Source of the DNA: a virus
Strand: one strand, 5' to 3'
Length of the DNA stretch: 39,652 bases
Virus record (IMG/VR): IMGVR_UViG_3300050821_007279
Location: 1-39,652 of that record
Both the position numbers and the translations under genes were made by a program. This document shows, piece after piece, positions 2,945 to 35,512 of this stretch (positions are counted from its first letter, which is position 1; every line of letters starts with the position of its first letter). The notes under the pieces were generated by a model that saw only the letters and a list, made by a program, of their open reading frames with translations, did not search any database and was not told the DNA's origin.

Positions 2945-3673
2945 TGAGCTATTAGTACACATACGCCATGCTCTTTCTGCTCCAGATTCTTTTTCTTTCT
3001 CATTTTCACTTTGCGCAAGTGTTAGAGCATCATCCCATCGCTCATTGCGCAAATATGTGGAAGGGTGCGGAATGAATCGCTCCGTTTTCCAGCTTTCTTC
3101 ATTCAAATTTCTATTGATTACATCATCAATTATTCTTTTAGCAATTTTATCGTATCCCAGTTTTATCCATATTTGGCAGGCTTTTTTCTTGTCTTTCTTT
3201 TTCGGATAAACATTCCAAAATTCGTCAAAACTCGCACGCGCATTGCTTTCAAATGCGCATATGTTTTTAAAAGCTTTTTCTTTATTTATATTCTTATTAT
3301 TAAGCTTCTTATTATTATGAGCCGACTTGGCGGCCGGGGGGGGGGCGACTTGGCGGCCGGGGGTAGCCGACTTGGCGGCCGGGGTATTTTCTGTTTTAAT
3401 TGATCTTTCTGGTTGCACAAAATATCTTTGTCCTTTAATTGTTTTTCGTTTCAATTCTCCATGTTTTTCAAAAAAGACTAACGCATCTTTTACAGTAGAA
3501 ACTGAAGATATGCCGGTTCTTTTTTTTATAGCTTTATTTGATAGGTAACATTGATTACCTTTGTTCAAGAACTGGAAAATAGTTTCGTAAACTCTTAAGT
3601 AAGATAAAATTAAACCTGGTAATTCTAAAATTCTTGATGGAACGACGAAAAATGCAGATTTATATTCTGACAT
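2936..3673 (-). CDS. Replication initiator, O-like, with winged-helix and DnaT-like C-terminus
   Basis: A 245-residue protein starting MSEYKSAFFVVPSRI; ATG 3673 has AAGGAAAA upstream and is preferred over the in-frame TTG at 3730. Residues about 10-85 look like the winged-helix domain of phage O/replisome-organiser proteins (LSNKAIKKRTGISSVSTVKDALVFFEKHG). A low-complexity linker follows (PAAKSATPGRQVAPPPAAKSA), encoded by GC-rich direct repeats. The C-terminal domain has the FDEFWNVYPKKKDKKKA pattern and ends HPSTYLRNERWDD, typical of DnaT/phage replication proteins. By analogy with lambda O, it would bind the iterons inside its own gene and recruit the P-like protein encoded next. Confidence 0.8.
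   Translation of the reverse strand: MSEYKSAFFVVPSRILELPGLILSYLRVYETIFQFLNKGNQCYLSNKAIKKRTGISSVSTVKDALVFFEKHGELKRKTIKGQRYFVQPERSIKTENTPAAKSATPGRQVAPPPAAKSAHNNKKLNNKNINKEKAFKNICAFESNARASFDEFWNVYPKKKDKKKACQIWIKLGYDKIAKRIIDDVINRNLNEESWKTERFIPHPSTYLRNERWDDALTLAQSENEKEKESGAERAWRMCTNSSIN
3321..3384 (-). repeat. Three GC-rich iterons inside the O-like gene (candidate origin)
   Basis: Three copies of a unit containing CGACTTGGCGGCCGGGG start at 3323, 3346 and 3368, spaced 23 and 22 bp. They are conspicuously GC-rich in an AT-rich genome and contain the palindrome CGGCCG. An AT-rich stretch (about 3270-3320) lies directly beside them. Iterons within the initiator gene next to an AT-rich block is the lambda ori arrangement. 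Confidence 0.65.
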
Positions 3674-4290: not shown

Positions 4291-4497
4291 GTGAAAGAAC
4301 AAAAAGAACAAAATAAAGTAACTTCTGCAATTTCTGCAAAATGCAGAACTGAGCTAGGTTTACTTTCGGAGTATATGAATTTAACTTTGCAGGAAACAGT
4401 TAAGTATGTCTTAGAAAAGAATGTTTCTACATTATATATAAAAGCAGCACAAAAACATTTAAAAAGTATAGAGAATAATATGAAAGAGGAAGAATAG
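4291..4497 (+). CDS. Small helical protein, possible RHH paralogue
   Basis: A 68-residue protein with GTG start at 4291 and AAGGA upstream. It is helical, with a central stretch (ISAKCRTELGLLSEYMNLTLQETVKYVLEKN) that resembles an RHH domain, following a polar N-terminus. It directly follows the RHH gene. Function unknown; weak regulator call. Confidence 0.5.
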   Translation: MKEQKEQNKVTSAISAKCRTELGLLSEYMNLTLQETVKYVLEKNVSTLYIKAAQKHLKSIENNMKEEE

Positions 4498-4509
4498 GTT
4501 TAAATAGGT

Positions 4510-4540
4510 GTGTGTGTATAGCTTAACCCTATACACACAC
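4510..4540 (+). promoter_or_regulatory. 12-bp intergenic hairpin
   Basis: GTGTGTGTATAG (4510-4521) pairs perfectly with CTATACACACAC (4529-4540) around a 7-nt loop. No T run follows, so it is not a standard terminator. The downstream tail ATCAACTTAACAACTAAGG resembles the tails of the hairpins at 37721, 37951 and 38330. Confidence 0.65.
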
Positions 4541-4590
4541 GGTATCAACTTAACAACTAAGGTGTCCATAATCCACTTAGGGGGTAAATC

Positions 4591-4803
4591 ATGAACGAAA
4601 ATATTTTAAACACAATTGATAGGAAATATCAACAACTTATTAAAATGGGCGTAACTCTAGCCCACACAGTAGAAGGGCTAATGGATTGTAGCCCAGAATT
4701 AATAAATAATGTACATGCTAAAAAAGCTTATGATATTGCAAAAGAGTGGAACCAAATAGCAATAGATATTTATGAGCAAACATTTTCCAGGGAGGGAAAA
4801 TAA
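4591..4803 (+). CDS. Small helical protein of unknown function
   Basis: A 70-residue, largely alpha-helical protein (MNENILNTIDRKYQQLIKMG...). The start is supported by GGGGGTAAATC before ATG 4591. No TM, cysteine cluster or known motif. It ends one base before the next gene and lies upstream of the annealase gene in the same operon. Confidence 0.6.
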   Translation: MNENILNTIDRKYQQLIKMGVTLAHTVEGLMDCSPELINNVHAKKAYDIAKEWNQIAIDIYEQTFSREGK

Positions 4804-4804
4804 C

Positions 4805-5128
4805 ATGAAAAATATCGCCAAAAAACATTTCTGTAAATCAGTAATCGAAGAACATATAAAACGAGACAGTGACGGTTACTTCCTTTTCGTTCATCAAATT
4901 CCTTTTAAAGAAATGAAAATATTCATTTCACACTTCCTTGAAGTACCAGACTACATTGACGCAATGGAAAGTGATACTCGTATGCGTGCGTATATCGATG
5001 AATATCGGGAATTGATGCAGGAGTTTATTGATGCTGAAGTAGACAAAAAGAACTCAGCATTTATGGAAGAACATGGATTAATTTGGCTCAGGACTGGTAA
5101 CGGTGACTTAACTTGCGTGAGGAGATAA
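4805..5128 (+). CDS. Protein of unknown function in the recombination operon
   Basis: A 107-residue protein starting MKNIAKKHFCKSVIEE; ATG 4805 has GGGAGGG 7-8 nt upstream and is chosen over an in-frame ATG at 4772 that lies inside the preceding gene. It has a mixed alpha/beta pattern and acidic helix (DYIDAMESDTRMRAYIDEYRELMQEFIDAEVDKK). It ends two bases before the Bet-like gene, so it is probably translated with it. Not recognised. Confidence 0.55.
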   Translation: MKNIAKKHFCKSVIEEHIKRDSDGYFLFVHQIPFKEMKIFISHFLEVPDYIDAMESDTRMRAYIDEYRELMQEFIDAEVDKKNSAFMEEHGLIWLRTGNGDLTCVRR

Positions 5129-5130
5129 AA

Positions 5131-6036
5131 ATGAGTTTATCTACATTTGTTGAAAATGATACTAATTTGTCTGTAATGAACGTATTAAAAGAATCTTTAT
5201 ACCCAACGGCTTCAACCGATGAATTAGTGATGTTACTAAATTATTGTAAAGCTAGAAGAATTGACCCCATTTTAAAAGTAATACATTTAGTTCCTATGTC
5301 TGTAAAAACAGGAGAAAAAGATAAATCAGGTAAAGACGTGTATAAAAAGAAAAACGTAATAATGCCTGGTATTGGATTGTATAGAATCGACGCTGTTAGA
5401 ACTGGACAATATGCAGGAATAAGTGCTCCCGAATTTGGAGAAGATGTTACAGAGCAACTTGGAGAAATAAAAGTTACTTATCCGAGATGGTGTGAGATGA
5501 CAATACGTAAAATTTTACCTGATGGAACAATTGCAGAATTTACCGCTAAAGAGTACTGGAAGGAGAACTATGCAACTAAAAATAATTTTGTTATTGAACC
5601 AAATACAATGTGGTTAAAAAGACCTTACGGTCAATTAGCTAAATGCACAGAAGCTCAAGTGTTGAGAAAAGCATTCCCGGATGCAGTTGGACAAGAATAT
5701 ACAAAAGAAGAAATGGAAGGTAAGTACTTAGATAATTTTAAAGAGCCATCAAAAATATCTTTAATAAAAGAAACTGCAAAAATTACCCAATGTATCGAGC
5801 AATCTAATGATAAAGAAGAAGATGCTCTGTTAGAACTTGACTTCAAAGCAGATGAACAAAGATTAGAAAAAGTATCTACACTGGAAGAACTAGAAGAAGT
5901 ATACAAAGCTTCATACAAATTCTGGGCTGAAAAGAGAGATGCAAAAAGACTTAAGAAAATTGTAGATATTAAAGATATCCGTAAAAAAGAGTTGCAAGAA
6001 CTACCAATATTTACAACCGTTGATGAGGATAAATAA
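5131..6036 (+). CDS. bet: Phage recombination protein Bet/RecT-family ssDNA annealase
   Basis: A 301-residue single-strand annealing protein of the lambda Bet/RecT superfamily. The N-terminal portion has the family signature LLNYCKARRIDPILKVIHLVPMSV, the middle has a GIGLYRIDAVRTGQYAG stretch, and residues near 170 have LAKCTEAQVLRKAFPD, the diagnostic annealase motif. The C-terminal third is charged and helical and diverges from Bet; lambda Bet is about 261 residues. ATG 5131 with GAGGAG upstream is the start. No lambda exo-like partner was recognised; the following Gp157-family gene is a frequent neighbour of annealases. Confidence 0.88.
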   Translation: MSLSTFVENDTNLSVMNVLKESLYPTASTDELVMLLNYCKARRIDPILKVIHLVPMSVKTGEKDKSGKDVYKKKNVIMPGIGLYRIDAVRTGQYAGISAPEFGEDVTEQLGEIKVTYPRWCEMTIRKILPDGTIAEFTAKEYWKENYATKNNFVIEPNTMWLKRPYGQLAKCTEAQVLRKAFPDAVGQEYTKEEMEGKYLDNFKEPSKISLIKETAKITQCIEQSNDKEEDALLELDFKADEQRLEKVSTLEELEEVYKASYKFWAEKRDAKRLKKIVDIKDIRKKELQELPIFTTVDEDK

Positions 6037-6038
6037 CC

Positions 6039-6578
6039 ATGAACACATCTAAAAACTTAAGTCTATGGCAATTAACAAGTGAACATCAAAAGTTGCTATC
6101 TGAGTTATATGATAACGAAACAGGTGAATTTAACGAGATAGCAGAGGCTAAACTAAATTTGTTAGAAACAGATATAGAGAAAAAGTGTATCGCAGTTGGT
6201 GGATACATCCGTAAAATTGAGTCGGAACAAAGGGAATTGGAATCACTTCTAATGGAAGTTGAAAACAGGATTAAATACTATGACAATGAAAGACAAAAAT
6301 ATAGGAACTATTTGCAAAGCAACATGGAAAAACAAGGTATAACTGAAATTAAATGTCCTTACTTTAATGTTCGTATAAAGAAAAATCCTTATTTTACGGA
6401 TATCATTAATGAAGAATTAATACCGGATGAATTTATGCGTGAACGCGAGATCGTTCGAGTGGAAGTTAAACCTGATAAAAATGCTATAAAGGAAGAGGTA
6501 TTGAGCACTGGCGAACAAGTACCAGGCGCATATGTCTCACAGAAAAATAAACTTGAGATAACAACGTCTAAAATATAA
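6039..6578 (+). CDS. Gp157-family protein (siphovirus Gp157-like)
   Basis: A 179-residue protein of the Gp157 family (first described in Streptococcus phage Sfi11). An N-terminal helical half with a long coiled coil (about 15-110, including IRKIESEQRELESLLMEVENRIKYYDNERQKYRNYLQSNME) is followed by a beta-rich C-terminus (FNVRIKKNPYFTDIINEELIPDEFM...). The family is usually found beside recombination/ssDNA genes and sometimes linked to phage resistance; its biochemical role is not established. It starts 2 nt after the bet stop. Confidence 0.8.
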   Translation: MNTSKNLSLWQLTSEHQKLLSELYDNETGEFNEIAEAKLNLLETDIEKKCIAVGGYIRKIESEQRELESLLMEVENRIKYYDNERQKYRNYLQSNMEKQGITEIKCPYFNVRIKKNPYFTDIINEELIPDEFMREREIVRVEVKPDKNAIKEEVLSTGEQVPGAYVSQKNKLEITTSKI

Positions 6579-6605
6579 TATGCAAATTCATTCAAGCGAA
6601 TGTAA

Positions 6606-6772
6606 GGGCGATGATACTTTCATTTTTCAATTGTATGTAAGTAAAGTCGCCCAATATTTTATGCCACTCACGGCGTGGACAGTGACACGCCTCTATCGAG
6701 ATCGTGATAATGGGTAAGCATAAGGTGATCAACCGTTCCCTACCCAAGTCAGTGCAATTCTGACTGAGTGGC
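6606..6772 (+). ncRNA. Structured noncoding RNA candidate with tRNA-like closing helix
   Basis: This is a visibly less AT-rich stretch between genes. The 5' hairpin GGGCGA...CTTT/AAAG-TCGCCC (6606-6652) has a 5-nt bulge. Then comes a multibranch element closed by GCCACTCA/TGAGTGGC (6663-6670/6765-6772). Inside are arms GGCGTG/CACGCC (6672-6691), TATC/GATA (6694-6709), TGGGTA/TACCCA (6711-6746) and a 5-bp stem with 7-nt loop, GTCAG-TGCAATT-CTGAC (6748-6764). The last arm stacks directly on the closing helix, as a T arm does on an acceptor. There is no TTCRANY loop and no CCA, so it is not called a tRNA. It may be a leader element of the gene at 6795 or a free RNA. Confidence 0.5.
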
Positions 6773-6794
6773 AATATTAAAAAGGAAAATTAAC

Positions 6795-7208
6795 GTGTAT
6801 GACTTAGACGAAGCTACAGAAAAAGAAATAAAAAGTTTGTGCGATAAAATTATAGGTGGTAGAGAAATAATAGAAAAAAAATTTAGTAATATGATGAATG
6901 ATTTTTTTGATGAGAGCTGGAATAATTTTATTGAATATTTAGAAAATGATTCGGAAATTAATCTTTCTCTATGTATAAAAAGGCGAGTGGATACATTAAT
7001 GGAAGGTTTGTTAAGTGGTGATACAAAATATTTAAAAGATTACAAAATAATATCAGAATATGATTTTGGAAGATTAAAACGGATAAGATTAGCTATATGG
7101 GAATCAGCAGGAGGAGAAATTGCTGATTCAACTATTGATGCACTGACTAAAGAAAATGAAGAATTAAAAAAACAATTAAAAAATGAAAGAAGATATAGGA
7201 ATTATTAA
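6795..7208 (+). CDS. Protein of unknown function with C-terminal coiled coil
   Basis: A 137-residue protein. I choose GTG 6795 (MYDLDEATEKEIKSL) because AAAGGAAA lies 6 nt upstream; an earlier in-frame GTG at 6768 falls inside the folded RNA element and has no ribosome site. The protein is acidic and helical, ending in a short heptad-like run (TKENEELKKQLKNERRYRNY) suited to oligomerisation. Not recognised. Its mRNA leader would contain the structured element 6606-6772. Confidence 0.6.
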   Translation: MYDLDEATEKEIKSLCDKIIGGREIIEKKFSNMMNDFFDESWNNFIEYLENDSEINLSLCIKRRVDTLMEGLLSGDTKYLKDYKIISEYDFGRLKRIRLAIWESAGGEIADSTIDALTKENEELKKQLKNERRYRNY

Positions 7209-7220
7209 AAAGGACTACCA

Positions 7221-7544
7221 ATGCCAGACAGAATACTTATAAGACAAGCACAATGTAAGCAGTGCAGTAAGGATTTTCTTATGCCGACTATTTTTGATTA
7301 CTGCCAAAATTGCAATGAAGAATATAAAAACGAATTGCACACACTTGTAGAATTTGAAAAGATTAAAAATGAAATAAAATGGCGAAAGAGAAAAAGAATT
7401 TCGTATATTTCTTTGATATATTTATCATTGTTTGGTTTTATTGGAATAAAATTTGGGTTAATTTATGAATTGTTGTCAATTGCAATTTTTTCTATTGGCG
7501 TGTATGCAGAAGATTTAGTAAATTTTCTTTGCGATAAATTTTAA
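7221..7544 (+). CDS. Zinc-ribbon membrane protein of unknown function
   Basis: A 107-residue protein. The N-terminal treble of cysteines (CKQCSKDF...YCQNCNEEY, residues about 12-36) looks like a zinc ribbon. A basic linker (KWRKRKR) follows, then two hydrophobic segments (ISLIYLSLFGFIGIKFG and LLSIAIFSIGVYAED). The ribbon would face the cytoplasm by the positive-inside rule. It follows the 6795 gene by 12 nt. No function assigned. Confidence 0.6.
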   Translation: MPDRILIRQAQCKQCSKDFLMPTIFDYCQNCNEEYKNELHTLVEFEKIKNEIKWRKRKRISYISLIYLSLFGFIGIKFGLIYELLSIAIFSIGVYAEDLVNFLCDKF

Positions 7545-7619
7545 AAAACAATAACACAAAACGCAAACTAACTAAGGAATTAATTATTATAATAAGGTCA
7601 ACTTTTAGGAAAATTTAAA

Positions 7620-7766
7620 ATGTTAAATAAAGTAATTTTAGGAATAATCATGAGTATTTCTATTGTATCAATTAGTTTTGCAAACAATAATATACATTAT
7701 AAATGTATAGATTGTCCTTGCACTCCGTGGGGTTGTGGCTGTTGTACAGTGCCTGACGGTCTTTAA
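7620..7766 (+). CDS. Sec-exported cysteine-rich micropeptide
   Basis: A 48-residue ORF with TTAGGAAAA before ATG 7620. The first 21 residues are a clear signal peptide ending ISFA. The mature peptide of about 27 residues carries six cysteines in a short stretch (C-IDC-PC-TPWGC-GCC). After cleavage it would be a small periplasmic disulphide- or metal-rich peptide. It is the first of three consecutive exported proteins. Function unknown. Confidence 0.65.
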   Translation: MLNKVILGIIMSISIVSISFANNNIHYKCIDCPCTPWGCGCCTVPDGL

Positions 7767-7798
7767 AATTTAGATATTTTTATTTATTTTTATAAATT

Positions 7799-7836
7799 AT
7801 CCCAGTCATGAGATGGCTTTGATATATGACTGGGAT
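7799..7836 (+). promoter_or_regulatory. 11-bp leader hairpin with conserved loop GATGGCTTTGAT
   Basis: ATCCCAGTCAT (7799-7809) pairs perfectly with ATGACTGGGAT (7826-7836). The 16-nt loop contains GATGGCTTTGAT. TTTTAAAAGGAAATTGTA and ATG 7854 follow. The loop is nearly identical to that of the hairpin at 8797-8836 although the stems differ. Confidence 0.7.
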
Positions 7837-7853
7837 TTTAAAAGGAAATTGTA

Positions 7854-8368
7854 ATGAAAAAGTTAATATTGTCTTTAATATCAATAGTTGTATGCTCATC
7901 ATCTTTTGCTTTAACATCTGTACAAAAACCATATCCTGAACCACATGCAGTATTGATATATGAATCTTGTAAAGGTGTTAAAGATTGCGGGATAAAACAT
8001 ATTGATTCAAAAAAAAAATTCAATTATCGCCGCAGTATGTTAGCGCAATCACGGAAGTAAAAGATTTAATAGGTAAATTATTTACATACAGAATAGTAGA
8101 TTCTTCTCATCGTATTTTTATTAAGAACGAAACTTCTGATATTCAAAGATTTACTTACACGTATAAAGTTAGTGGCGGAAATGCAGAGCACATTAGAACA
8201 TATCAAATTGATCTTTATCCAGATCAATATTGGAATGATCAAGCGACTCTTTGGGTAAACATGTATTTAGAAGTGGAGGGAACATTTCCGTTGCTTGCAC
8301 AAACATCAATAGCAGGTATTGAAAGTGTTTCACATGATAATTCAGCTATATTAATCGTTAATCAATAA
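7854..8368 (+). pseudogene. Sec-exported protein with -1 frame break at an A10 tract
   Basis: The first frame (7854-8060) encodes a signal peptide (MKKLILSLISIVVCSSSFA) and ends early after a run of ten A (8009-8018). Moving to the -1 frame at this run gives an open frame to TAA 8366-8368, making one exported protein of about 171 residues ending ...SHDNSAILIVNQ. The continuation has a beta-rich periplasmic look like the next gene. The A run could be a programmed -1 slip, transcriptional slippage, an indel that inactivates the gene, or a sequencing error. I list the whole span as one broken or frameshifted gene. It has AAAGGAAA upstream and a conserved-loop hairpin in its leader. Confidence 0.65.
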
Positions 8369-30716: not shown

Positions 30717-32888
30717 TTATTCACGTTTTACATGTGTTTTTTCCGCTGCTTTATGTTGTAATTCCTTATGGTGCATTTCCTTTTCATGATGCAATTGACT
30801 TGCATGTGTTAGCATCTTTATCATGTTCTGCGAATTTGTTATTTGAAGGTCTACTCCCATGCGTTGGCTCTCAGCCTGATACCTCAAGATTGTCTCTTGC
30901 AATTGTGCTGCTTCTTTCTGTTTATCAGCCTCTAACTTCGCAAACCCAAGTGACATGTCTTGCTGTGTTTCAAGTGCTTTGCGTTGTAGTTCCTGTTTCT
31001 TCAGTTCTATTTCTTGCATCTTCATTTGCGCTTCTTGCTGTGCTTGTTGCGCTTTCATTTGCAATTCTTGTTGCTTGAGTTGTAACATCATTGCATCAGG
31101 CGAAGGTTGTGGAGGTTTAGGTGGCAAAGGCTTACCCGTTTTTCCTGCTTCAATTATTTCAGGCGGCACTAGAGTTCGTAATCGATTTCGTAATTCCATA
31201 TTGTTATCTAGAGGCAGATTCTCTGCATATAAATCAGCAATCATGGGAAATACCTTTCCTTCTCGATCTGCTTGTAATACGGATTGTAAGGAAAGCAATG
31301 CCTCTTGCTTTTGCCCTTCATATGATGGACCTGCTTTTAACCTGATATTATATTTTCCCTTAGTCATGTCATTCTTCATTTGCAGACCATATTCATCCAT
31401 AGGCTGATTAATATTGACTGTCTGCGATTCGGATTCAGGCATATTCAATACGAGTGAACGCTGAGTGTCGTATATTTCAGGTATCCATTCGTTTATTACT
31501 TCCCCGCCTGTAGCAATTGCAATATTTATAGAATTGAATGGTGTTGCAGTATTTCTCGTACCACGATTTGTACGGGCTTCAATTGCGGTACCTGACACTT
31601 CATTGCCAAGTTCGCCCATTTGTGTATCATACATCCCTGTGCCGCTCTGGATATCCATTAAGGTACGTTCGTATTGTTGTACCAGGGATTGTGATAACTC
31701 GGGCGGCTTTAACTGTTCAGGCTTCGCCCCACTTGCTGTTTCATCATAATATAACGCACCATTAACGACCGAAGGGTCACGCCATTGTTGTTGTGCATCA
31801 GGCGATGCAGCACATTTACGAGGCATAATAAATTGATCAAACCTAGATATTTTCAGCATGTATGCTGATTGTGTTGCGAGATAATTCAAATATTTTTGCG
31901 CGTCTTTTACATCTTTGAAGAACGAACGTGTGATTTGCTGGCCTTGCTTAGAAAAATAACTTTTCTGGTCAACAAAAATAACGGGCAATAATGTCGCTTG
32001 AGATGGCAAATATGTCTCATCAAGCAAAAAATCACCCGCTATCTGGGTATGCTTGATTTTATACTTTATAGATTCACGTTTATCAACAACTAAGACAGGT
32101 ACGCCATTGCTGATTAAATATTTTTTACCATCGAATTTTACTTTCTCTAACTTTTTAAATTCTTTATCGTTAACAATAGAACCATCTGACAGCTTATAAA
32201 TAGTGATTTTCTCAGGTTCTTTTTCATAATCATCAACTATCGTAATAGAATCATCGTCAGCAAATGCAATCGTGCTATCTTCAGTTATAGCAGTTGTACC
32301 AATTTGCGATTCAATATCGCGTCCATATTTATCACGGAATTTTCTACGGGATATACGTGTTTTATATCCTCCAAACATGCCATCGACTTTACATACATGC
32401 TTAGCAGAAATATCCCAGTAACAACGATTAGGGTCTTCAAAAGAATAAACTTTAATTATCTGGTCAAAACTTTCGTTGTCTTTATATTCTGTATCAAGTC
32501 GATATGCGCCAAATCCAGCAACAATGGCCTGGCCAAACGCTGTTTGATATACACTTTTAGCATCTGAATTAAAACTGATATCTTTTATGATTGCTGCACG
32601 TACTTGTGCAGTTTCAGGCGGAACATCCTCAGAAGGCATGACTTGCAGATTGGGAGTATTGAATATCTGCTCGCCGCAAAGATGGTTGTAAAGCACACCA
32701 AGCTTGTTAAACACTAACGGGATTTTGTTATAACGCTCGAATAGTTTGGACTCGTCTTCTCGCCATTGGTCTCCCATGACGAAATCCATCCATTCATAGT
32801 ACATAGACCTATTAATAGTCCAGTACTTCTCCCACTTATCGACCCTGTCCCTGATCTTCCGGCATAGCTCCGGTTCTTTACTCGGCAT
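30717..32888 (-). CDS. Portal protein, P22 gp1-like
   Basis: 723 residues, the same size class as P22 gp1 (725). The N-terminus (RDRVDKWEKYWTINRSMYYEWMDFVMGDQWREDE) and the EDPNRCYWDISAKH segment near residue 150 are characteristic of the P22-like portal family. The C-terminal ~150 residues are a long Gln/Lys-rich coiled coil (QAQQEAQMKMQEIELKKQELQRKALE) that corresponds to the barrel of P22-type portals. Twelve copies form the DNA entry vertex and sense headful packaging. Its start has an SD hairpin. Confidence 0.9.
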   Translation of the reverse strand: MPSKEPELCRKIRDRVDKWEKYWTINRSMYYEWMDFVMGDQWREDESKLFERYNKIPLVFNKLGVLYNHLCGEQIFNTPNLQVMPSEDVPPETAQVRAAIIKDISFNSDAKSVYQTAFGQAIVAGFGAYRLDTEYKDNESFDQIIKVYSFEDPNRCYWDISAKHVCKVDGMFGGYKTRISRRKFRDKYGRDIESQIGTTAITEDSTIAFADDDSITIVDDYEKEPEKITIYKLSDGSIVNDKEFKKLEKVKFDGKKYLISNGVPVLVVDKRESIKYKIKHTQIAGDFLLDETYLPSQATLLPVIFVDQKSYFSKQGQQITRSFFKDVKDAQKYLNYLATQSAYMLKISRFDQFIMPRKCAASPDAQQQWRDPSVVNGALYYDETASGAKPEQLKPPELSQSLVQQYERTLMDIQSGTGMYDTQMGELGNEVSGTAIEARTNRGTRNTATPFNSINIAIATGGEVINEWIPEIYDTQRSLVLNMPESESQTVNINQPMDEYGLQMKNDMTKGKYNIRLKAGPSYEGQKQEALLSLQSVLQADREGKVFPMIADLYAENLPLDNNMELRNRLRTLVPPEIIEAGKTGKPLPPKPPQPSPDAMMLQLKQQELQMKAQQAQQEAQMKMQEIELKKQELQRKALETQQDMSLGFAKLEADKQKEAAQLQETILRYQAESQRMGVDLQITNSQNMIKMLTHASQLHHEKEMHHKELQHKAAEKTHVKRE

Positions 32889-32890
32889 AA

Positions 32891-32910
32891 CAAGTTAATC
32901 CTTTAACTTG
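32891..32910 (-). promoter_or_regulatory. SD-in-loop hairpin before the portal gene
   Basis: CAAGTTAA-AGGA-TTAACTTG: perfect 8-bp stem, loop AGGA, two bases before ATG 32888. Confidence 0.88.
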
Positions 32911-32953
32911 ACTTGCTTTATTATATCATTCTGATGGATTTTCCACCAATATC

Positions 32954-33238
32954 ATCCTTGCCTTAGTTTGCGTAATATGGCCTTACCTCACAAAACACTA
33001 CAAAACACCACATCACATTACAGCATTAAAAACCCTTACATTTCCATACACTACAAGACGTGACATCACAAGACACCACATTACAATATTTATAAAAACC
33101 CTTACATTGCCTTACGTTGCATGACAAAACATGACACCACATCACACAACATCACTAAAAACCCTTACATTGCCTTAACTTACGTAACATAACTCTACTC
33201 CACGACGCATGACAAAACATCTCCCTACAATACGTTAG
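32954..33238 (-). repeat. Pentamer-periodic array, downstream part (four modules)
   Basis: No gene in the ~350 bases between RAMP-like gene and portal. On the plus strand the bases fall into consecutive 5-nt words ending in AC (for example ATGAC AAAAC ATGAC ACCAC), i.e. GTNNN on the transcribed strand. They are broken by a core of type AAAAACCCTTACATTGCC. Cores lie at 32956 (variant CCTTGCCTTA), 33033, 33099 and 33162, spaced 78, 66 and 63. Word phase is kept between cores. Confidence 0.85.
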
Positions 33239-33784
33239 TTAATTCCTTTCTCTCCAATTAGTTACAACAAATCTCCCATATATTCCTTTGCGTGCTGGCC
33301 TGAAGTCACCTAATCCGACCTTGCTCCCAGCATCGTCAACCAACGTACGAATGAATTTAGGACTAAACATTTTCAAATCCAATGTCAAAGTAAAGTCTAC
33401 ACACCAATTGTCCAACCTTGGCCTATGGCAAACAATACGGCCGCCAGTAGAAGGCACAACAACTGCCCTGCTATCTACTTCCCATGTTTCTGGCGACTTG
33501 AAATATACGATTTCACCATCAATCATAACGCCAGCAGGAACTAAAGAACTCCTAGCCGTAGTTACTTTTACCTTTCCGTCCTTGTGAAATTTACCGGCTT
33601 CAACTAAGCAAGCGAATATATTTACAGTTGGATAATATAATCTGTCTTGCTCATCAACATAGCAAACCCGCTTGGCCGCTTCACGCGGCAATATGTCCTT
33701 GTCCTTTTTTACTTTCTGCTCATCAATATTAAAACGGTTCATCAACAACGGTGTTATCCCTGTTATTTCTATATCTATCTTCAT
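33239..33784 (-). CDS. RAMP-like (Cas7-like?) phage protein of unknown function
   Basis: 181 residues, start ATG 33784 with the SD AAGGTAAGGAT supplied by the last repeat core. The N-terminus IDIEITGITPLLMNRFN looks like the first strand and loop of RAMP proteins (Cas7/Csm3: ...G-x-TPL...). The middle has YYPTVNIFACLVEAGKF, similar in place to the 'IP-S-L-G-R' segment, and the C-terminus has a glycine-rich VGLGDFRPARKGIYGRF like a RAMP G-loop. I recall related hypothetical proteins in other phages, but no experimental function. The gene interrupts the usual terminase-portal junction and has the pentamer array on both sides, pointing to a joint unit. Confidence 0.5.
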   Translation of the reverse strand: MKIDIEITGITPLLMNRFNIDEQKVKKDKDILPREAAKRVCYVDEQDRLYYPTVNIFACLVEAGKFHKDGKVKVTTARSSLVPAGVMIDGEIVYFKSPETWEVDSRAVVVPSTGGRIVCHRPRLDNWCVDFTLTLDLKMFSPKFIRTLVDDAGSKVGLGDFRPARKGIYGRFVVTNWRERN

Positions 33785-33792
33785 TTTTATAT

Positions 33793-33985
33793 CCTTACCT
33801 TAGATTGCAAAACTTTACGCTACGACACATGACATCACTATACAACAAAATTAAAAATCCTTGCCTTAGTTTTCAGAACACTACACTACAATACATCACA
33901 TCACAGTACAAAATTAAAATCCTTACCTTGCATTACAGGACAACACAGGACTTCACAAAACAACACATCACTACACTACATTATT
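33793..33985 (-). repeat. Pentamer-periodic array, upstream part (three modules)
   Basis: Same 5-nt rule as 32954-33238. After the core at 33921 nine words in a row end in AC (among them ATTAC AGGAC AACAC AGGAC); seven do so after the cores at 33859 and 33793. Cores are AAAAATCCTTGCCTTA-like and spaced 66 and 62 bases. On the transcribed strand the core reads AAGGTAAGGATTTTTA, and the last one serves as ribosome site of the RAMP-like gene. Confidence 0.85.
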
Positions 33986-33991
33986 AATTCT

Positions 33992-35512
33992 CTACCGAAA
34001 CATCCCTCTTTCATGCGGCATTAACTTTGGCACTTCAATTGCACTCTGTACACCGTGAAAACCGCCAGCAAATGTGAGACATAATGCATCAGCGCCATCT
34101 GGACTAGGCAATCCTCTTGCCCGTAAATCATCCTTAGATTCTATCTGTACCTGCCCACTAGAATTCTCCTTGAACCCCAATGAACACAACTCACCATGTA
34201 ATTCATCCTCATCCGGAATCTGCACAGGCATATCTTGATACAACCAATCTCGCATATCGCCCCACAATTCAGCGCGTTGGTTCTTATAACGTTCCTTGTC
34301 ATTAGCACTGCGAGCGACATTAATTCCTTCCACACAGTCATATCCCATTTCATTCAACCTGTCTACAACGCCGGCACCTATCCCGATGCAATCGATATAG
34401 ACTTTGTCCGGTTTTTCTTCGGTAATGATGCGTTTCACACGACCTGCAATTTCCATCGTATTCAAGTGTGAGACTCTTTCCAAATTGTAGGCGCACCGTC
34501 CTTTGCGTCTGATAATTGCCGTTCTATCTCTGTCACTGATTGCAACATCGACACCAATAATAAGCTTATTTCCTGGTTCAACATTAGCTTTGCGGGCAAA
34601 CTCAACATATTTACTGTTGATAAACACGTTATGTATCGGGTTTTTGAATGCCTCAACGCTATTAAAGGGGTATTCAACGTTAAATCGTTCTCGTCCTGCA
34701 TCAAAATCCTTAGAAAACTCGTTAATTTTGAGTCTACGCCATGATAAATTATCCTTAGTTAACCCATTTTGTCCATACTGGCTCATCAAAAACTCTTCTT
34801 CGTCCGATAGATGCATATTTTCGGAATTGTGGCTATATTCGTCATTCCAATACCATGGCAAAAAGATACTTTGATACTCACTATCAGGCGACATTCCCGA
34901 TAACCAACGCTCATGGAAGTAATTTCCGATGCCATTAGCTGTAGATTCGAGGATAATTTCCGTGCCAGCCTCGTTACTGACTGTTTGCAATATTCCTTTC
35001 GAGTGTTCCTCCGCGAATGCCCAAAATGCTACTTCTGAACCGTGGAACAATTGCACCGTTTGCGAACGTCCTACAGCTTTGTTGCCTGCTGTGCCAATCG
35101 CATATCCGCTATCAAGCTGCTTAAAGTTGAGTTCTTTCGCATTGTCCGTATTTGGCTTGGGTGCTAATCCAGGTTCTAGGTTTTCGTTGAACCTCTTGGC
35201 CATGTTAAAAAGATTATTTGTGGCCTCTTTGTCGTGGGTAAGAATAAAGGCTTTTTTACCACGTGAAGTGATGACTTGGTGGAAATAGCGACCAGAAATT
35301 AGCGTACTCACACCTTGTTGTCTACCCTTAAGTATACAGGCACGCACACGCCCGGTAGATTCCTTCTGCCGTTGCAAACGTCCGTGCAAGAAGAGCTGTG
35401 CGCGATTAAACCGAAAATACTTTTTGACACCCGCTTTGTCTTTTACAATCAGAAATCTTTCTGCAAATTTCTGAAAATCTCTTATAGAATCTAGTTTCTC
35501 TTGACTTATCAA
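33992..35512 (-). CDS. terL: Terminase large subunit
   Basis: A 506-residue packaging motor. The ATPase part has a Walker A-like KGRQQGVST (residues about 62-70) and a Walker B-like QLFHGSEVAFW near 155. The C-terminal nuclease has the RNase H-like motifs IIGVDVAISDRDRTAI, VYIDCIGIG and DGADALCL. It translocates DNA into the procapsid through the portal and makes headful cuts. The start is TTG 35512, supported by an SD hairpin; no upstream ATG is present. It is preceded by a terminator-like hairpin (35552-35588). Confidence 0.93.
   Translation of the reverse strand: MISQEKLDSIRDFQKFAERFLIVKDKAGVKKYFRFNRAQLFLHGRLQRQKESTGRVRACILKGRQQGVSTLISGRYFHQVITSRGKKAFILTHDKEATNNLFNMAKRFNENLEPGLAPKPNTDNAKELNFKQLDSGYAIGTAGNKAVGRSQTVQLFHGSEVAFWAFAEEHSKGILQTVSNEAGTEIILESTANGIGNYFHERWLSGMSPDSEYQSIFLPWYWNDEYSHNSENMHLSDEEEFLMSQYGQNGLTKDNLSWRRLKINEFSKDFDAGRERFNVEYPFNSVEAFKNPIHNVFINSKYVEFARKANVEPGNKLIIGVDVAISDRDRTAIIRRKGRCAYNLERVSHLNTMEIAGRVKRIITEEKPDKVYIDCIGIGAGVVDRLNEMGYDCVEGINVARSANDKERYKNQRAELWGDMRDWLYQDMPVQIPDEDELHGELCSLGFKENSSGQVQIESKDDLRARGLPSPDGADALCLTFAGGFHGVQSAIEVPKLMPHERGMFR

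Follow-up and report, generated by a model that had tools for sequence, protein, structure and literature searches.

VIPR (Viral Interference Programmable Repeat) systems, described by the Doudna laboratory in a preprint of April–June 2026 (PMC13142463), combine a minimal RAMP protein, Vipr, with vrRNAs composed of 9–16 YNNGG pentamers and a 3′ tail. Vipr proteins are reported to co-purify with these pentamer-repeat vrRNAs, which guide Vipr to double-stranded DNA, one base being skipped for each NN; competing phages and satellites are repressed (PMC13142463). Seven VIPR types are reported there, all with GGY/NN "or a related consensus". For phage SUSP1, the preprint reports that Vipr binds double-stranded DNA, that repression is obtained from either strand, that the vrRNA tail forms a pseudoknot, and that satellites exploit the head genes (PMC13142463). 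CRISPR effectors have been proposed to descend from VIPR, which is also proposed to be one of the smallest RNA-guided DNA binders.

Here, we analyzed a 39,652-nucleotide stretch of viral DNA (IMG/VR record IMGVR_UViG_3300050821_007279; hereafter the window), in which a Cas7/RAMP-like protein had been predicted from the sequence between terL and the portal gene, next to periodic pentamers. We consider it quite probable (about 0.87) that this locus is a VIPR system carried by the phage and lacking an accessory gene, consisting of Vipr and vrRNA arrays that would repress the DNA of a competing element. The basis is the protein family, the predicted fold, the anatomy of the arrays, their constant and variable positions, conservation in relatives, guide turnover, and a codon-like composition of the NN positions. 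The features are collected in the table below.

Features of the vipr locus in the window, and loci of distant homologues with other pentamer codes (numbered within their own records)
Feature	Position	Strand	Remarks
terL, upstream neighbor	33992..35512	-	phrog_2, E = 4.2e-27; same transcriptional direction; context, outside the system
array V1, vrRNA-like	33916..33976	-	NN = GT GA GT TT GA CC GT CC AA; tail GCAAG GTAAG GATTTT
array V2, vrRNA-like	33853..33909	-	NN = AC GA GA AT AG AG TC; tail CTAAGGCAAGGATTTTT
array V3, vrRNA-like	33785..33843	-	NN = AT GA CA GT AG AA TT AA; tail CTAAGGTAAGGATAT
vipr	33239..33784	-	181 aa; minimal RAMP (Cas7-like) protein
array V4, vrRNA-like	33157..33233	-	NN = AT AG GA TT CA GT GG AG TA TA AA; tail TTAAGGCAATGTAAGGGTTTTT
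array V5, vrRNA-like	33094..33155	-	NN = GA TG GA GG CA TT CA AA; tail GTAAGGCAATGTAAGGGTTTTT
array V6, vrRNA-like	33028..33084	-	NN = AA GG CT GA CA CT AG AT; tail GAAATGTAAGGGTTTTT
array V7, vrRNA-like	32953..33021	-	NN = AA GA GG TT AG TT GA AA CC; tail CTAAGGCAAGGATG
P22-type portal, downstream neighbor	30717..32888	-	PF16510, E = 3.6e-94; same direction; context
other pentamer code, L070	2000-2900		
other pentamer code, L073	380-720		
other pentamer code, L048	3134-3380		

The vipr ORF is the sole gene between terL and the P22-type portal gene, which bears out the predicted insertion, and its product is homologous to the minimal RAMP Vipr. The sole significant PDB sequence match of the 181-aa protein is SUSP1 Vipr (36pp chain D, E = 4.1e-8 from the single sequence), and a profile of the 23-sequence family (A4) matches the same chain over its full length with E = 1.8e-20. 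Among PHROGs, the protein falls into phrog_4652 (E = 2.1e-20), a family annotated as of unknown function that is also matched by all 23 aligned homologues; this family thus gains a functional lead, with the proposed function resting on the SUSP1 homologue. Pfam and PADLOC searches with the protein gave no match, and bacterial genome contigs yielded no copy of Vipr itself, while tblastn retrieved 132 phage records, dominated by the SUSP1/Felixounavirus group and including Gordonia, Pseudomonas and Vibrio phages. The best matches of terL, portal and RecT are mostly in phages of Gammaproteobacteria. The N-terminal motif MKIDIEITGITPLLMN and the C-terminal glycine-rich VGLGDFRPARKGIYGRF, from which the RAMP assignment had originally been made by eye, are present as described and rank with the best-conserved regions of the family. 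Compared with relative L001, whose terL is also 94% identical to that of the window, the Vipr protein is 94% identical, with dN 0.041 and dS 1.66; the resulting dN/dS of about 0.025 lies below that of neighboring terL (0.037), and vipr is under strong purifying selection.

The AlphaFold2 model built from 23 homologues (pLDDT 88, pTM 0.83), which supersedes a poor model from 10 sequences (pLDDT 47), predicts a Cas7-type fold, with a β-α-β-α-β (ferredoxin/RRM) core and a low-confidence, flexible glycine-rich loop near residues 161–170. In Foldseek, the best 50 listed PDB matches are all CRISPR RAMP-type chains (Csm3, Cmr, type VII Cas7 and Cas7-11), with E values of 7.7e-7 to 2.2e-5, TM scores of 0.45–0.61 and identities of 11–14%, and a viral structure library returned a "Cas system-associated RAMP superfamily protein" at 3e-8. 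The predicted RRM core and flexible glycine-rich loop are thus shared with Cas7-family RAMPs such as Csm3, Cmr4, type VII Cas7 and Cas7-11. In contrast to these proteins, to which identity is only 11–14%, the window protein stands without a CRISPR array or cas genes, and its putative guide takes the form of a pentamer array, where theirs is a spacer with a handle. A tandem-repeat search of the window found no CRISPR-like array, and the genes beside vipr are terL and portal, not cas genes.

Pentamer arrays that share the strand of vipr fill most of the two gaps flanking it (207 and 350 nt). There are seven arrays of 7–11 pentamers, three upstream (33785-33976) and four downstream (32953-33233), with unbroken GTNNN runs of 9, 7, 7, 5, 7, 8 and 8 units. 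Simulating the same sequence 2000 times with a first-order Markov model gave longest runs of 2–4 units in nearly all cases and none above 7; likewise, 70 array units in seven arrays were counted near vipr vs. 0.0 in Markov shuffles. The periodic pentamers originally predicted are therefore real, with runs of up to nine units, but their reading as GUNNN, with three free bases, is ruled out. Across 828 units, taken from the window and the relatives closest to it, G occupies the first position in 94% (0.44 bits) and T/C the second in 95% (0.76 bits), the next two positions are close to random (1.91 and 1.90 bits), and the fifth is T in 64%, A in 17%, G in 12% and C in 8% (1.49 bits), so only two positions per unit are truly free. 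The window pentamer is best written [T>A>C]-G-Y-N-N, in which a constant GY and two variable bases are followed by a T-rich base. This HGY/NN reading is the published GGY/NN frame with its first G replaced.

In the window and its relatives, most arrays end in a conserved 3′ tail, AAGGYAAGGRTTTTTA or close to it. Tails of the form CTAAGGCAAGGATTTTTA and close variants stay in pentamer register. A structure check of the tails revealed no consistent fold, leaving a structured tail unsupported; searches within the arrays found no promoter or terminator above chance, and none of the Rfam RNAs, hammerhead included, was detected in the window. The ribosome-binding site of vipr, correctly placed within the repeats by the original prediction, is the tail CTAAGGTAAGGATAT of V3, the nearest upstream array (33785-33800, minus strand), and the same arrangement is seen in most relatives. 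Vipr could therefore repress its own translation. A perfect hairpin also lies upstream of the portal gene (window 32890-32915, minus strand), whose loop carries the ribosome site of portal (CAAGTTAA-AGGA-TTAACTTG). At the same place in L001, L002 and L005, this AGGA is likewise enclosed by stems, of differing sequence. This suggests selection on the structure, perhaps for translational control of portal.

The window belongs to a clade of 12 loci (with L001-L006, L008, L009 and L011-L013; L007 is near-identical to L006), and all 12 members carry same-strand flanking pentamer arrays. GY-core arrays were present in 16 of the 17 further homologues scored, the exception, L070, having period-5 TGA/TGG arrays. 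Of the two outcomes that were to count against the original prediction, a model lacking an RRM/RAMP core and homologues regularly devoid of neighboring repeats, neither was observed. With one fixed procedure, GY-core chains exceeded the Markov-shuffled expectation in 28 of 29 loci, and as a positive control the same method recovered the TNNGG (=GGYNN) arrays of SUSP1, LESphi2 and Gordonia phages. The base preceding GY differs among lineages. Among the 12 clade members, 11 have mostly T (54–83% of units) and L009 has A and T in roughly equal shares; the base is G in 90–100% in the Gordonia, LESphi2 and L071 loci and in 75% in SUSP1; and it is mixed in L064, L065, L068 and L072. Farther from the clade, the triples are GGY, GC or others. 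A single change on the tree accounts for the T-first group (support 87/87; no value as low in 500 shuffles), and GGY is scattered. These patterns suggest that G-Y alone is the obligatory part of the scaffold in most lineages. Other pentamer codes occur in distant Vipr homologues, namely TGR/NN in L070 and GCA/NN in L073 and Vibrio phage phiHSIC. The latter two, Vibrio (Listonella) phage phiHSIC, with its ORF22, and IMG/VR locus L073, likewise combine a homologous gene with pentamer arrays, downstream of the gene in phiHSIC and upstream in L073, but differ from the window in their constant triple, GCA, and form a separate supported pair on the tree. Such a graded series of relatives (TGY, GGY, GC, GCA, TGR) could be used to locate the residues that recognize the scaffold.

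Comparison of the window with the type II VIPR systems of phage SUSP1 and a P. fulva prophage, as reported in PMC13142463 and PDB 36pp, reveals the same overall organization. Both have a homologous, phage-borne Vipr; same-strand intergenic pentamer arrays with a constant triple, free NN positions and a conserved 3′ tail; and several vrRNAs on either side of the gene. However, there are differences between the systems. The window triple is HGY rather than GGY, so that the strict GGY form is not present; the arrays have 7–11 units vs. the published 9–16; and the tail, (GYAAG)n GRTTTTTA, keeps pentamer register and lacks a clear fold, unlike the tail reported for SUSP1. In further contrast to those systems, the locus lies between terL and portal and has no vap gene. 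No vap accessory gene is conserved beside vipr among the loci compared, most of which have only the vipr and portal families in common, a P22-type portal being present in 11 of 14 neighborhoods and the adjacent terL family varying. As the preprint describes vap as only "typically" present (PMC13142463), we do not treat its absence as grounds for exclusion. The system goes beyond the original prediction in three respects: it is of a kind already described, each unit carries two guide letters, and the target reported for such systems is double-stranded DNA read with a one-base skip (PMC13142463). The matched protein-RNA filament that had been proposed corresponds, by analogy, to what VIPR is reported there to be.

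Between the window and L001, guide similarity does not exceed that of shuffled guides (best-match values of 0.33–0.57 vs. 0.38 ± 0.08 after shuffling); guides therefore change between close relatives, while the scaffold and tails are retained. Of six frame models for the NN dinucleotides, the best was sense codon positions 1+2 of the window's own genes, which beats base composition by 17.6 nats (665 units, no fitted parameter), a fit that the published one-base skip predicts. Guides matched to the sense strand of coding sequence, skipping the wobble base, would be expected to have such an NN composition, though an N1 purine preference of other cause could contribute. Searches for targets gave no candidates. 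Five window guide cores had 4, 9, 12, 49 and 6 exact 8-unit matches in IMG/VR, none of which extends by more than one further unit; one 10-unit window guide had no match in bacterial genome contigs; and all 74 arrays with 7 or more units in the window and its relatives, searched against their own genomes (0.67 Mb, both strands, skips 0–3), showed no excess over shuffled guides at skips 0, 1 and 2, the matches at skip 3 being the arrays themselves. Of the 49 IMG/VR matches of V7, 45 lie in coding frame (KEGFSLDN-like peptides), but they fall in many unrelated proteins and were rejected as chance. Since exact matching misses mismatched targets, and the host and satellites may lie outside the collections, these null results neither support nor refute a function.

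For transcription, RNP formation, the skip rule, DNA binding, repression and competitor targets, our account follows the SUSP1 and P. fulva VIPR systems as reported (PMC13142463). By this analogy, terL, arrays, vipr, arrays and portal would most likely be transcribed late, as part of the head-gene operon, and vrRNAs of 7–11 HGYNN pentamers with a short 3′ tail would be released by some further step. Copies of the 181-aa Vipr would line the vrRNA, one per pentamer, holding the H-G-Y triple unpaired and presenting the two variable bases. The complex would then pair with double-stranded DNA such that each NN is matched and one target base, mostly the codon wobble base, is skipped. The effect would be to block transcription of a competing element that shares the cell, whether a satellite, a prophage or a co-infecting phage. 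Elements that exploit head genes would be fitting targets for a system expressed from the head-gene operon.

Alternatively, the filament could act on RNA rather than DNA, with transcripts of this phage or of others as targets, or the arrays could be spacer RNAs that tune terL and portal expression. The closest folds, those of type III Cas7 proteins (Csm3, Cmr), belong to binders of RNA targets, and the arrays lie inside a late operon, both of which would suit such a role. However, the NN composition fits the sense and not the antisense strand, and a guide in coding-strand sense cannot pair with that mRNA, which leaves the template DNA strand as its only partner. The own-genome search also found no self targets, and SUSP1 Vipr is reported to bind double-stranded DNA and to repress from either strand (PMC13142463). 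We therefore regard an RNA-directed function as unlikely.

That the pentamers are DNA sites, either terminase iterons or a pac site beside terL, with the RAMP-like gene as an unrelated passenger, is very improbable. The arrays do adjoin terL, and periodic repeats near terminase genes occur in other phages. Yet arrays follow vipr where the terL family differs (clusters C3, C7 and C13) and flank it where the neighbors are not terL (SUSP1 and Gordonia Trine); they lie on the vipr strand, and they have two free positions per unit, unlike a protein-binding iteron. A degenerate, inactive VIPR locus hitch-hiking in the head cassette would account for units that depart from GY, for arrays as short as 7 units and for the lack of a detected target, but the dN/dS of vipr, lower than that of terL, and the renewal of guides on a retained scaffold and tails in relatives make decay highly unlikely. 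The locus is thus best explained as a VIPR system lacking an accessory gene, and the clade to which it belongs would represent a single-gene version with a different constant triple. What is new is the variant scaffold code and the absence of an accessory gene; this novelty is limited by the VIPR preprint, and the variant may already be included in its fig. S17 (PMC13142463). It is conceivable, though rather doubtful, that the clade forms a distinct VIPR lineage, with an HGY/NN scaffold in which only GY is obligatory, no accessory protein, guides cut from a late head-gene transcript, and a Vipr that controls its own translation through the tail and ribosome site.

Two further observations concern the arrays of relatives. 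In L001, two pairs of vrRNAs (2997-3056 and 3153-3212; 1893-1952 and 2037-2096) are duplicates with slight divergence inside this single phage, an indication that arrays grow by being duplicated and that their guides change afterwards. L009 harbors an expanded locus (4338-8251), with about 20 vrRNA-like arrays distributed over 4 kb between small ORFs.
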